The notes under the pieces were generated by a model. It was not told the DNA's origin. It ran no database searches and saw only the letters and a program-made list of their open reading frames with translations. From contig DAOVBK010000099.1 in assembly GCA_030670605.1 (NCBI GenBank), positions 1 through 6,143 on the forward strand: 6,143 bases of DNA, in the 5' to 3' direction. Positions 1,478-5,318 of this stretch are shown here, piece by piece; the first letter of the stretch is position 1, and every line of letters starts with the position of its first letter. The stretch comes from Candidatus Stahliibacteriota bacterium. Its GTDB lineage: Bacteria; Hydrothermota; Tepidihabitantia; SM23-42. A program made the translations under genes and the position numbers.

Positions 1478-1483
1478 AGATTT

Positions 1484-1511
1484 ATGATATCCGAATGACG
1501 AGAAAAATCAA
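1484..1511 (-). promoter_or_regulatory. sigma-70-type promoter of mnmG, probably leaderless
   Basis: On the minus strand TTGATT (1511-1506) is followed by a 16-bp spacer and TATCAT (1489-1484), matching consensus at 4/6 and 5/6 positions. Only six bases, AAATCT, separate the -10 box from the mnmG ATG, so transcription should begin at or within a base or two of the start codon. No Shine-Dalgarno is present. The spacing is nearly identical to that of the divergent SEC-C gene promoter. The sequence match is seen directly; leaderless initiation is inferred. Confidence 0.7.
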
Positions 1512-1533
1512 GCAGTTAAAGGAAGAAAAGTGC

Positions 1534-1675
1534 ATCAGGATATCAGATGATCAGGAAATGGATACCAGATTATCAGGACATCAGACACTATGCCATCGCC
1601 TGATTGCTGATGCCCATCTCCCGATATCCTGTTCTCCTGACACCCATATCCTGATACTCTGGTTATCTGATAACC
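1534..1675. repeat. inverted array of degenerate 8-bp words (ATCAGGAT type) between divergent promoters
   Basis: The 303-bp gap 1478-1780 holds no convincing gene. Its left part has ATCAG at 1534, 1542, 1550, 1572 and 1580, mostly 8 bp apart. From about 1599 the words appear as the reverse complement: TCCTG at 1627, 1635 and 1649, then TCTG at 1658 and 1666. The switch creates inverted arms, 1564-1581 pairing with 1646-1663 at 16 of 18 positions around a 64-nt loop. A perfect 10-bp pair joins 1534-1543 with 1646-1655 as an alternative fold. A tight dyad, GGTTATC-T-GATAACC, lies at 1661-1675. The rest, 1676-1747, shows only a weak CATCC/CCAACC flavour. Function is unknown; it could be a regulatory cruciform, a protein-binding array or decayed repeat DNA. 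Confidence 0.75.
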
Positions 1676-1747
1676 GCTATCATGCAAAGGATTGTTGCAA
1701 TCATCTCCGGCATCCTTACCCCAACCCATCTTCCATGTGTTACCATA

Positions 1748-1775
1748 TTGACATTCAGCCCATTCCATCTATAAT
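1748..1775 (+). promoter_or_regulatory. consensus sigma-70 promoter of the SEC-C gene, probably leaderless
   Basis: TTGACA (1748-1753) and TATAAT (1770-1775) are both perfect consensus hexamers, separated by 16 bp. The ATG at 1781 begins only 5 nt after the -10 box, which places the expected transcription start at about 1781-1782, on the start codon itself. There is no ribosome-binding site between them. The simplest reading is a leaderless mRNA. The alternative is a shorter protein starting at an internal GTG near 1842, behind a purine-rich AAAGAGAAAAAAG stretch. Confidence 0.85.
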
Positions 1776-1780
1776 GAATC

Positions 1781-2356
1781 ATGGCACTGGCAGATATTCA
1801 GGAAAAACAGAGTGACGAAAGAAAAAGAGAAAAAAGACTCGTGCACGTTACCAATGCATTGAGTCGGGATTTTCAAGATTCAAAAGTCATCAAATCAAAA
1901 GCCGCGGTCTACAAAGACAACGCAGATTACGTAGTGAAGAGTTTCTTAGATTACGTCTTTTTCCACGAACACAAAGAAATCAGAGAAATGACAGATGACC
2001 ACGTAAATCATTTCATGCTTGAGTTTGCACCGCGAAAACTATCGTTTTCAACTGAAGACGCGAAAAAAGTACCTGAAATCCTCTCCCATTTTCTTGTATT
2101 CTTGGAAACAGAAGGACACATTCATAACGGCGTACAGCTTGGAGAAACTACTAAGGCAAACAGTCGCGCCTTCATTAAGGTAATGCCAAAGCAAAAGAAA
2201 GCTCCAGCAACAAAGACGGCCAAACCAACAAAGAAAGCTGCGCCCAGGAAAAAACCTAAGAAGAAAGAAGTGCTCGAAGCAAAAGTTGGCAGGAACGATC
2301 CCTGCCCGTGCGGCAGTGGCAAGAAATACAAAAAGTGCTGCGGGAAGTCTCTTTAA
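1781..2356 (+). CDS. SEC-C zinc-motif protein with basic Lys/Ala/Pro linker
   Basis: This 191-residue soluble protein ends in a clear SEC-C motif: NDPCPCGSGKKYKKCC with C175, C177, C186 and C187, the CxC-x8-CC zinc ligand pattern found at the C-terminus of SecA and of many otherwise unrelated bacterial proteins. Residues about 1-30 are highly charged. Residues about 42-132 look helical (FLDYVFFHEHKE, VPEILSHFLVFLE) and recall a helical domain I have seen in other SEC-C proteins, though I cannot name it. Residues about 136-165 are a Lys/Ala/Pro/Thr-rich linker resembling a histone H1 tail, likely disordered and able to bind nucleic acid or ribosomes. There is no signal peptide or membrane segment. 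The start is set by a perfect promoter whose -10 ends 5 nt before the ATG. It is divergent from mnmG and convergent with the symporter, so the context gives no function. Coding status is secure; the role is unknown. Confidence 0.88.
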   Translation: MALADIQEKQSDERKREKRLVHVTNALSRDFQDSKVIKSKAAVYKDNADYVVKSFLDYVFFHEHKEIREMTDDHVNHFMLEFAPRKLSFSTEDAKKVPEILSHFLVFLETEGHIHNGVQLGETTKANSRAFIKVMPKQKKAPATKTAKPTKKAAPRKKPKKKEVLEAKVGRNDPCPCGSGKKYKKCCGKSL

Positions 2357-2388
2357 CAAACTCTAAATTCTAAACGCTAAACCCCAAA
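2357..2388. repeat. short run of 7-bp words (CTAAAYN)
   Basis: Directly after the SEC-C stop, CTAAA recurs at 2363, 2370 and 2377 with an exact 7-bp period (CTAAATT, CTAAACG, CTAAACC). The same style of word, CAAA at 7-bp spacing, occurs at 5056-5083. It runs straight into the 9-bp ACACAG array. Confidence 0.55.
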
Positions 2389-2442
2389 ACACAGATTACA
2401 CAGAAACTACACATAACACAGAAAACACAGATGACACAGACG
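2389..2442. repeat. 9-bp periodic repeat ACACAGATT
   Basis: ACACAG occurs at 2389, 2398, 2416, 2425 and 2434; every gap is 9 or 18 bp, with a decayed unit between 2398 and 2416. The unit is close to ACACAGATT or ACACAGATG. The reverse complement of the same word forms the array at 5151-5237, so this is a dispersed family rather than local slippage at one site. Confidence 0.75.
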
Positions 2443-2458
2443 TACTCAATTAGGAAAC

Positions 2459-2555
2459 GTCTAATCGTCTGATAGTCGGATCAATGATTAGTCATATGGT
2501 CTGATTGTCGCATAGTCTCATAGTCAGACAATAGGACAGTGGGACAATTAGACCA
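2459..2555. repeat. 8-bp periodic array (GTCTGATA type) that flips strand, forming a 59-bp imperfect palindrome
   Basis: GTC occurs at 2459, 2467, 2475, 2491, 2499, 2507, 2515 and 2523, all in one 8-bp register (the 2483 unit is decayed). At A2526 the array turns into its reverse complement: GAC at 2527, 2535, 2543 and 2551, again exactly 8 bp apart. The arms 2497-2525 and 2527-2555 pair at 22 Watson-Crick and 3 G-U positions with 4 mismatches. The structure sits between the converging SEC-C and symporter genes, where it could act in transcription termination or mRNA 3'-end protection. Neither strand shows a T-tract after it, so a classical intrinsic terminator is not supported. Confidence 0.85.
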
Positions 2556-2565
2556 ATAGATATCC

Positions 2566-4990: not shown

Positions 4991-4995
4991 GACGG

Positions 4996-5023
4996 AGTAT
5001 CTTTCGGCTCTCGCGCATACAAA
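4996..5023 (-). promoter_or_regulatory. possible weak leaderless promoter for the second permease
   Basis: On the minus strand GATACT (5001-4996), 4/6 to the -10 consensus, ends 5 nt before ATG 4990, the same geometry as the two strong promoters in this window. The hexamer 16 bp upstream, TTTGTA (5023-5018), is a poor -35 at 3/6. If real, it would explain why the gene lacks a ribosome-binding site and sits 328 bp after its partner. Confidence 0.3.
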
Positions 5024-5048
5024 AGTGCGTCGAAGAATCATGTGTACT

Positions 5049-5083
5049 AAAATTCCAAATCACAAACCGCAAGCTCCAAATTC
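5049..5083. repeat. 7-bp periodic words (CAAATTC type)
   Basis: CAAATCA (5056), CAAACCG (5063), CAAGCTC (5070) and CAAATTC (5077) are consecutive 7-bp units, with a degenerate AAAATTC before them at 5049. The period is exact over at least four units while the word drifts. It resembles the CTAAAYN run at 2363-2383. Confidence 0.65.
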
Positions 5084-5135
5084 GTATTCGTCGATCGTTT
5101 GTCGTACTCATTGAATACGAATACGAGATACGAAT
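5081..5135. repeat. strand-flipping 7-bp words (TCGTATT then AATACGA) with a 10-bp stem
   Basis: TCGT at 5088, 5095 and 5102 is spaced 7 bp, preceded by TTCGTAT at 5081. After about 5112 the complement appears: ACGA at 5117, 5123 and 5130. TCGTATTCGT (5082-5091) and ACGAATACGA (5117-5126) are perfect 10-bp complements with a 25-nt loop. This repeats the orientation switch seen in the other gaps with a different word. Confidence 0.65.
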
Positions 5136-5150
5136 CACCAGTACGATTTT

Positions 5151-5237
5151 CTGCGTCCTCTGTGTATTCCCAATCTGTGTAATCTGTGCATTCATTTTCT
5201 GTGTTATCTATGTAATATGCATTTTCCATTTCTGTGT
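5151..5237. repeat. CTGTGT array, reverse complement of the ACACAG family
   Basis: CTGTGT or a one-base variant starts at 5151, 5160, 5175, 5184, 5199, 5208 and 5232. The spacings are 9, 15, 9, 15, 9 and 24 bp, so pairs of units 9 bp apart recur every 24 bp. On the minus strand, the direction of permease transcription, it reads ACACAG as in the 2389-2442 array. No protein is likely: the open frames through here exist because all spacings are multiples of three. With the neighbouring arrays and hairpins, this fills the 328-bp gap 4991-5318. Confidence 0.75.
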
Positions 5238-5243
5238 CATTGC

Positions 5244-5280
5244 CAATTCTACCCAAATCGGTGATTTGGCAGTAGAATTG
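5244..5280 (-). other. strong long hairpin after first permease
   Basis: CAATTCTAC (5244-5252) pairs perfectly with GTAGAATTG (5272-5280), and CCAAATC (5253-5259) with GATTTGG (5263-5269). The result is a 16-bp stem with one 2-nt bulge and a GGT loop on the plus strand. It is the second of two hairpins downstream of the permease stop in the direction of transcription. There is no T-tract after it, so it may stabilise or punctuate the mRNA rather than act as a standard terminator. It could also be a REP-like dispersed palindrome. Confidence 0.7.
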
Positions 5281-5284
5281 AGCA

Positions 5285-5311
5285 TCCCGTCGCGCGCAAG
5301 CGCTATCGGGA
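5285..5311 (-). terminator. GC-rich hairpin just after first permease stop; possible terminator or REP-like element
   Basis: TCCCG (5285-5289) pairs with CGGGA (5307-5311); an inner GCGC/GCGC stem (5292-5295 with 5300-5303) is closed by a four-base loop that reads GCAA on the plus strand. It starts 7 nt beyond the permease stop codon at 5319-5321. It has the position and GC content of a terminator but no following T-tract, so attenuation or 3'-end stabilisation is as likely. Confidence 0.45.
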
Positions 5312-5318
5312 CTGTGTA

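Follow-up and report, generated by a model that had tools for sequence, protein, structure and literature searches.

The short tandemly repeated (STRR) heptamers of heterocystous cyanobacteria are short words laid in tandem, and REPIN/RAYT systems couple small palindromic dispersed DNA to a trans-acting protein, a Y1 transposase. The present work concerns a window of 6,143 nucleotides, that is, the whole of contig C26 (DAOVBK010000099.1) in the draft genome of a Candidatus Stahliibacteriota bacterium (assembly GCA_030670605.1; 1.75 Mb, 294 contigs, 79% complete), whose intergenic gaps are occupied by arrays of degenerate 7-, 8- and 9-bp words that in places turn over to the complementary strand. 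The palindromes formed in this way are most likely relics, or copies lacking an open reading frame (ORF), of cassettes in which inverted word arrays surround a gene of the IVP/S23 family (PF05635) encoding a four-helix-bundle protein.

Among the described systems, the intervening sequences (IVSs) of rRNA genes are to be considered in the first place. The account of the Coxiella IVS, in which such sequences are termed parasitic elements, describes excision by RNase III and terminal inverted repeats that form a stem, with tandem GACAGAT heptamers preceding an S23p ORF (PMC4990558). IVP genes are also reported within rRNA insertions of Candidate Phyla Radiation bacteria, short ORF-less rRNA insertions being known as well (PMC11270868); moreover, 18 IVP genes are recorded in cas loci (PMC3936711), and IVP is named beside CRISPR systems (PMC10910872). 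The elements described here share with the IVSs of Coxiella and Leptospira the terminal inverted repeats around a PF05635 ORF, and with the former the heptamers beside the ORF (PMC4990558); in addition, an Azospirillum rRNA IVS analysed here has heptamer arms. They differ in being intergenic, in having as arms arrays of degenerate 7-8 bp words, which vary by locus, and in the hundreds of GTCNNATN matches that stand alongside four IVP matches. With regard to the window itself, its palindromes have terminal inverted repeats predicted to form a stem, its gaps lie between protein genes and not in 16S or 23S rRNA (the Azospirillum relative is located in 23S rRNA), and an S23p/IVP ORF in the loop is found not there but at other loci of the genome and of the order.

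A second parallel is provided by the P6b stem of the Nostoc trnL intron, composed of degenerate heptamers, TDNGATT or NNTGAGT, that are said to ensure pairing (PMC4476775). Short degenerate tandem words and a stem made of the repeat motif are common to both cases; the Nostoc stem differs in residing within a group I intron, and the passages describing it mention no S23 ORF (PMC4476775). Direct TAACTGA repeats of Beggiatoaceae, cyanobacteria and Bacteroidetes, for which binding of a regulatory protein has been suggested in Beggiatoaceae, are likewise intergenic heptamer arrays present at many places, but consist of one fixed word, are direct and lie mostly near start codons (PMC4679880). As for the STRR heptamers, their 7-bp tandem intergenic unit fits the CTAAAYN and TCGTANT words of the window and not its 8- and 9-bp words, and the host is not a cyanobacterium, the nearest named relatives of the symporter encoded in the window being mostly metagenome-assembled genomes of candidate division WOR-3.

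The association with IVP genes emerges from the genomes of the order. PF05635 (23S_rRNA_IVP/S23) has 156 matches, distributed over 26 of the 27 genomes there, and is found in none of 14 control genomes. The printed flanks of 35 matches reveal, in many cases, oppositely oriented arrays on both sides of the gene, with a word that often differs at unrelated loci. For the flank test, loci were cut for 83 of the 156 matches, 82 being usable and 74 matches remaining unused; L245 (internal stop) and L285 (broken ORF) were excluded. Inverted arms were scored as present when at least five 7-mers of the 160 nt upstream recurred in the complement of the 160 nt downstream, a threshold passed by 50 of 82 IVP loci versus 104 of 926 control ORFs (Fisher test, 1e-23). 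The result holds with one locus per 60% identity cluster (25/42; 5.6e-13) and against control ORFs flanked on each side by 80 nt or more of non-ORF DNA (21/217; P 6.5e-19, by clusters 8.6e-12), of which those of at most 200 amino acids pass in 6 of 68 cases. When flanks are swapped between clusters just 9% reach the threshold, and direct sharing of 7-mers between IVP flanks is not enriched (P 0.44). An earlier and smaller test, with 34 loci and 994 control ORFs that still included some IVP genes, gave the same direction (P 5e-7). At the RNA level, the flanks of a locus form a predicted duplex of -68.7 kcal/mol over 80 loci, versus -54.7 kcal/mol for swapped flanks (P 1.7e-11). At many IVP loci both arms use one word, which is rarely that of another locus.

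In the genome that contains the window, all four PF05635 matches lie between inverted arms, the broken one being judged by eye, and one of the encoded proteins (L198) matches an S23-type protein of known structure, 2GSC (E 4.7e-8). Several words of the window recur in the arms of IVP loci. In a strict count, demanding at least two copies of a word on both inverted arms and comparing with 952 control ORFs not purged of IVP genes, GTCNNATN is present at 4 of 82 IVP loci (L198 in the own genome and loci of three other genomes) versus 2 of 952 controls, TCGTATT at 2 of 82 (L235 and L236, in genomes G031 and G018) versus none, and CTAAAY at one of 82 (L284, own genome) versus none. The TCGTATT word is also seen at L238, L239 and L251, and ACACAGA is found at none of the 82 loci. 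The link between ATCAG words and IVP genes is a weak one and comes from L294 and L301, read by eye.

A view of how such cassettes may behave comes from a junction with conserved flanks that could be followed in 11 genomes, five of them from the IVP loci and six from nine further genomes searched. Three types of IVP gene, mutually 24-32% identical and each with its own arm word (by eye), occupy this junction: type A is intact in G020 and G029 (67% identical), type B in G038, and type C in G022, G035 and G039 (78-90% identical). In G031 (type A) and G037 (type B) the ORF is partly deleted and the arms are kept, and G028, G032 and the own genome have no IVP at the junction, which measures 65, 111 and 155 nt, respectively. 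In addition, G038 and G037 carry, beside their own arms, GATAA-type words resembling the arms found in G029 and G020 (by eye). A comparable picture is seen at a tRNA-tRNA junction, where unrelated IVP genes (26-27% identical) with different arms reside in genus g2 and in G036. Since unrelated cassettes occupy one junction in different genomes and arms persist beside partly deleted ORFs, several words lying end to end can be read as successive cassettes.

The same layout extends beyond the order. In the phylum of G017, PF05635 is present in 47 of 79 genomes searched. For plasmids, two queries returned 17 and 41 overlapping records, and 20 of the resulting 57 rows, chosen for host variety before the flanks were seen, were examined: 12 of the 20 S23/IVP loci have at least five inverted 7-mers, versus 18% of swapped flanks, and the mean number of shared inverted 7-mers is 15.2 for own flanks and 2.7 for swapped ones. 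The twelve passing loci include those of Nostoc, Calothrix, Anabaena, Geminocystis, Stanieria, Brasilonema and Riemerella; the inverted word arrays around plasmid S23 genes of Nostoc and its kin represent a likeness to the cyanobacterial heptamers. The Azospirillum locus, one of the plasmid loci with this layout, lies inside a 23S rRNA gene and is a classical intervening sequence with heptamer arms. A single IVP locus on viral contigs was left out of the counts. As a separate observation, two cyanobacterial plasmids have an S23/IVP gene between cas6 and cas4; the arrays at its flanks are direct in L305 and inverted in L316.

What reads as a strand flip in the window is a pair of arms belonging to an imperfect palindrome. 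Four such palindromes lie among direct arrays and short dyads as follows.

1534..1587, plus strand: left arm of palindrome 1, ATCAGNNN octamers (words at 1534, 1542, 1550, 1572 and 1580).
1599..1673, plus strand: CTGATNNN octamers forming the right arm of palindrome 1 and complementary to the left one (words at 1599, 1650, 1658 and 1666).
2358..2383, plus strand: direct heptamer array CTAAAYN (words at 2363, 2370 and 2377; TRF period 7).
2387..2443, plus strand: direct 9-mer array ACACAGATT (from TRF), which the IVP model leaves unexplained.
2459..2482, plus strand: three GTCNNATN octamers (from the word listing).
2491..2529, plus strand: GTCNNATN octamers forming the left arm of palindrome 2, with its centre GTCAGAC at 2523-2529.
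2530..2553, minus strand: right arm of palindrome 2, NATNNGAC octamers.
2566..2581, no strand: short dyad GCAGAG-TAAA-CTCTGC between palindromes 2 and 3 (from the sequence).
2594..2631, plus strand: GTTNNATN octamers forming the left arm of palindrome 3, with its centre GTTAAC at 2626-2631.
2632..2673, minus strand: right arm of palindrome 3, NATNNAAC octamers.
5055..5082, plus strand: direct heptamers CCAAATY.
5082..5108, plus strand: left arm of palindrome 4, TCGTANT heptamers.
5114..5146, minus strand: right arm of palindrome 4, ANTACGA words.
5160..5236, minus strand: direct 9-mer array ACACAGATT in minus-strand reading, in the sense of the permease genes.
5244..5280, no strand: dyad CAATTCTAC...GTAGAATTG (from the sequence).
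5284..5311, no strand: dyad ATCCCG...CGGGA (from the sequence).

The gaps are thus mosaics of several small repeat families. Words similar to those in the right arm of palindrome 1 occur at the IVP loci L294 and L301 and, by eye, past the SEC-C gene in L014, where CTGAT words lie 3' of that gene (by eye). Dyads (GCAGAG-TAAA-CTCTGC, CCCCGTTAGA..TCTAACGGGG, CTCTCCC..GGGAGAG) are interleaved with the arrays in the window and in many gaps of the own genome.

The predicted RNA folds are consistent with this description. Palindrome 1 folds over 1534-1683 with -42.5 kcal/mol (z -2.86), palindrome 2 over 2455-2560 with -38.4 kcal/mol (z -5.39), palindrome 3 over 2594-2672 with z -3.10 and palindrome 4 over 5080-5146 with z -1.78, a value matched by 7 of 200 shuffles; the direct arrays at 2358-2442 (z 0.72) and 5147-5240 (z 0.51) are not predicted to fold. 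Beyond the window, arrays of the GTYNNATN type form 37 inverted pairs in 60 loci of the own genome, which were partly chosen because they bear arrays, and none in one base shuffle of 20 loci. The strand reversal that the initial annotation ascribed to the gaps is therefore real and structured, without being general, as the window has CTAAAYN and ACACAGATT in direct arrays only.

Periodicity was scored by autocorrelation against dinucleotide-preserving shuffles. The first gap peaks at lag 8 (z 4.2), the second at lags 8, 16 and 24 (z 6.3, 5.3 and 4.6) and the third at lags 7 and 6 (z 4.0 and 3.2), whereas at lags 7, 8 and 9 the five genes of the window have |z| of at most 2.2; at lag 9, z is at most 2.5 in every whole gap, and the 9-bp word is visible in local stretches only. 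Absence of enrichment at lags 7, 8 and 9 across the genome had been named at the outset as a refuting condition, and it was checked on part of the genome: 30 contigs were sampled by number, blind to arrays; seven consisted entirely of N, and the 23 readable ones comprise about 160 kb with 50 intergenic stretches (14.3 kb), the expectation being derived from Markov shuffles. Intergenic doublets of exact 6-mers number 34 at lag 7 (5.8 in shuffles, sd 3.2), 42 at lag 8 (5.4, sd 2.8) and 7 at lag 9 (5.2, sd 2.9), the last with no excess, and N-free coding DNA, scaled for length, gives 3.2, 7.6 and 7.4 at lags 7, 8 and 9. The periods of 7 and 8 bp are, in other words, a trait of gaps and not of genes throughout the genome, and the 9-bp word is enriched as a word and not as a general period. 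Of the regularities first proposed for the three gaps, the periodic words and their genome-wide enrichment were borne out at 7 and 8 bp and not at 9 bp, the period is not exact throughout, as the 9-mer array contains indels, and several word types are not present in each gap, the first one being read as a single word type. It should be mentioned that some other array samples from this genome include all-N contigs and contigs picked for holding arrays.

The octamer GTCNNATN is particularly abundant in the own genome, which contains 423 matches to its 19-base pattern with at most one mismatch (52 for the backward control) and 306 exact ones (12 for the control). Exact matches are also seen in the order at large, in 16 of its 27 genomes, and in one of 38 further genomes from the class. 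Backward counts do not form a neutral control, since the reversed pattern fits CTGATANN, another word of these gaps, so that in other genomes control counts may equal or surpass the matches, examples being G019 (17+17 against 0) and G036 (8+13 against 22). In 81 arrays with 371 words, gathered from the 60 own loci with a tolerance of one constant-site mismatch per word, G, T, C, A and T are kept in 94-99% and three sites are free. A spacing of 83 bp (40 + 3 + 40 bases) is found in 13 of the 37 inverted pairs. Twelve of these 13 palindromes were compared, one having been dropped with fewer than 42 of 50 constant bases; aligned word by word, they agree at 0.935 of constant sites (GTC..AT held) and at 0.58 of variable sites, the latter value dropping to 0.325 after shuffling of word order. 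Whole elements therefore look copied, with the word frame kept and the rest drifting. In G042, all 26 exact matches lie within or close to the gaps of one Hdr/FlpD-like operon (L214:7058-14120, G042:C41), which has a PF05635 gene between two oppositely oriented GTCNNATN arrays and also a Y1 transposase gene. An interpretation of this cluster as a defence island was rejected, the PADLOC output consisting of two weak matches to desaturase models and the genes being those of the Hdr/FlpD-like operon.

The direct 9-mer array stands apart. The pattern ACACAGATNACACAG, with at most one mismatch, occurs at 27 places of the genome versus one for the backward pattern, and the ACACAGATT word is present in 37 of 61 genomes searched, the own one included, with one sense within each array seen. 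It is a second kind of word array, unexplained by IVP cassettes.

With respect to gene context, the window encodes GidA/MnmG (minus strand), a SEC-C protein (plus), a sodium:solute symporter (minus) and two ABC-2 permeases (minus). The coordinates originally given for the three complete gaps are correct: 1478-1780 (303 nt) separates GidA/MnmG and the SEC-C protein, 2357-2701 (345 nt) the SEC-C protein and the symporter, and 4991-5318 (328 nt) the two permeases. Two of the three gaps are far longer than the same junctions of relatives: the permease junction spans 4-54 nt in seven relatives and 151 nt in L011, and the symporter/SEC-C junction 11-119 nt in four relatives. By eye, the orthologous permease gap of L011 carries ACACAGAT words in the same sense as in the window. 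The SEC-C/mnmG gap of L011 (8093-8703) holds, by eye, a small ArsR-like reading frame, and the window has no such frame.

The layout around IVP genes, the words shared with them and the cassette junction together indicate, therefore, that the palindromic arrays are most likely arms of intervening-sequence-like cassettes. A possible course of events can be outlined on this basis. The arms would pair in the transcript and, we infer, the hairpin would be excised by RNase III in the manner described for rRNA intervening sequences, so that an insertion between operon genes might be tolerated. Slippage inside an arm, together with copying between arms, would hold both arms to one word while the word drifts, and the words found end to end would record the cassettes that succeeded each other at a site. 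As to the mode of spread, we infer that ORF-less palindromes such as GTCNNATN may move with help provided in trans by an IVP cassette.

A number of results weigh against such an origin. The window contains no IVP gene, and among the matches listed no PF05635 match lies near the SEC-C gene, either on the same small contig or within 50 kb, in the 18 of 23 family genomes that have a near-full-length SEC-C match. The gaps of the window are therefore tied to IVP cassettes by word, by layout and by analogy with decayed sites. The inverted-arm threshold is missed by 32 of 82 IVP loci, and two of the 20 plasmid loci, L305 (AAAGCTA) and L321 (GAGAGTGG), have direct and not inverted flanking arrays. Under a looser count of at least three copies over both arms, GTCNNATN is found at 5 of 82 loci versus 34 of 952 controls; ATCAG gives 4 of 82 versus 19 of 952, two of the four being GTCNNATN loci, and in the strict count 0 of 82 versus 1 of 952. 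The ACACAGATT word, present three times, scores 0 of 82 versus 23 of 952, and its listed clusters in the own genome have no strand flips. With the exception of GTCNNATN, the words of IVP arms are not clearly richer in their own genomes than in others, and the idea of a code linking word and protein was rejected, as below 60% protein identity word sharing is independent of the protein. Furthermore, the SEC-C/mnmG junction, with its 303 nt, falls between the 98 nt of L026 and the 611 nt of L011.

To these points must be added the numbers and the pairing of the GTCNNATN elements. The own genome has 306 exact GTCNNATN matches versus four PF05635 matches; ORF-less arrays thus far exceed IVP genes, and most are not one-to-one relics. 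In the largest class of palindromes, the two arms pair at 0.85-0.98 of constant sites and at 0.17-0.23 of variable sites, which would give hairpins with regular internal loops. Selection for a hairpin at the variable sites was rejected, as arm pairing there is no better than chance; an arm-swap control of this pairing is misleading, because copies exist in both orientations.

What the palindromes could be otherwise has to be judged on the same data. Plain short tandem repeats of the STRR type, namely slippage arrays arising in any gap, inverted by template switching, with IVP genes merely residing in repeat-rich gaps, would account for the periods of 7-8 bp and for the drift, and the slight likeness of neighbouring words of an arm at variable sites (0.345, random words giving 0.279) and the difference in arrays between close species (by eye) point in the same direction. 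We nevertheless hold this explanation unlikely, in that control ORFs with non-ORF DNA on both sides are mostly without inverted sharing (21/217 versus 50/82), flank matches are common within an IVP locus and rare between loci, the 83-bp palindromes agree word by word across loci, and constant sites are held while N sites drift. The constancy of G, T, C, A and T in the GTCNNATN words, the three free sites, the lack of pairing between arms at variable sites and the TCGTA largely kept in the arms of five orthologous IVP cassettes would also suit arrays of binding sites maintained by selection for a regulatory protein, the sites being read by IVP or another RNA-binding protein. This proposal leaves unexplained both why the loop has an ORF and why cassettes are exchanged, and the presence of arrays varies between relatives at the same junctions; as a full account we regard it as decidedly improbable, yet it is compatible with the cassette origin, of which it could describe the function.

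Enzymes capable of moving or writing such sequences fare worse. Y1 transposases that move palindromes, as in REPIN/RAYT, could be invoked, as all but one of the order's 27 genomes have Y1_Tnp (PF01797) and one such gene lies among the GTCNNATN arrays of G042; the possibility is nonetheless very remote, since the printed flanks of five own Y1 matches have no word arrays, other inverted repeats being present at some, and no copies of the palindromes flank a RAYT gene there. Moreover, REPs and REPINs are not known to be tandem word arrays. RAYT was on the grounds of these flanks rejected as the mover. The own RAYT (Y1_Tnp) genes at L218:640-1661 and L100:1965-2980 have end inverted repeats unlike the word arrays. 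The initial annotation had put forward templated, hairpin-primed extension. Synthesis of the templated or hairpin-primed kind, carried out by a reverse transcriptase or a telomerase-like enzyme, would suit words and flips that look templated, and PF05635 is noted as similar to Avd, known from diversity-generating retroelements (PMC10053308). The search for RVT_1 (PF00078) gave hits in just 3 of the order's 27 genomes, and no match in the own, 79%-complete genome; synthesis of this kind is hardly credible, and a diversity-generating retroelement or other reverse-transcriptase element was discarded on the same search. Finally, an assembly artefact, also raised at the outset, is unlikely, as the layout is found in the single-contig relative G020 (for instance at L240 and L268) and in many independent genomes.

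The notion of an intergenic element class recurring across the genome and the order is supported, and titles and abstract openings yielded no published account that describes it as such; a literature search by oligonucleotides brought up a single paper, on the Bacteroides capsule. In the same way, passages and title or abstract openings yielded no tie between IVP genes and intergenic word arrays; subscription journals and preprints lie mostly outside the coverage of both searches. The statement of the initial annotation that cyanobacterial heptamers are not described as flipping strand is not supported, in view of the Nostoc P6b stem of degenerate heptamers (PMC4476775); the protein partner, PF05635, was beyond the reach of a reading confined to the sequence.

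If the cassette origin is true, short bacterial word arrays and rRNA intervening sequences would belong to one element family. A wider proposal, which we advance tentatively and to which we give somewhat less than even weight, is that STRR and other word arrays in many phyla all go back to one S23/IVP hairpin-cassette superfamily, whose stem arms they would represent in living or relic form; members inserted into rRNA genes would be the rRNA IVSs. Concerted evolution of the arms across the loop would let each locus write its own word, and the words in a gap would record the succession of cassettes. Word arrays of a hitherto sourceless class gain a protein partner and a layout, and rRNA intervening sequences gain a home outside rRNA genes. 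The origin and upkeep of short degenerate intergenic repeats become testable through RNase III cutting, binding of the arms by IVP and movement of cassettes. The cassette origin would also explain the IVP genes found within cas loci and operons, which would likely be insertions and not parts of these systems.

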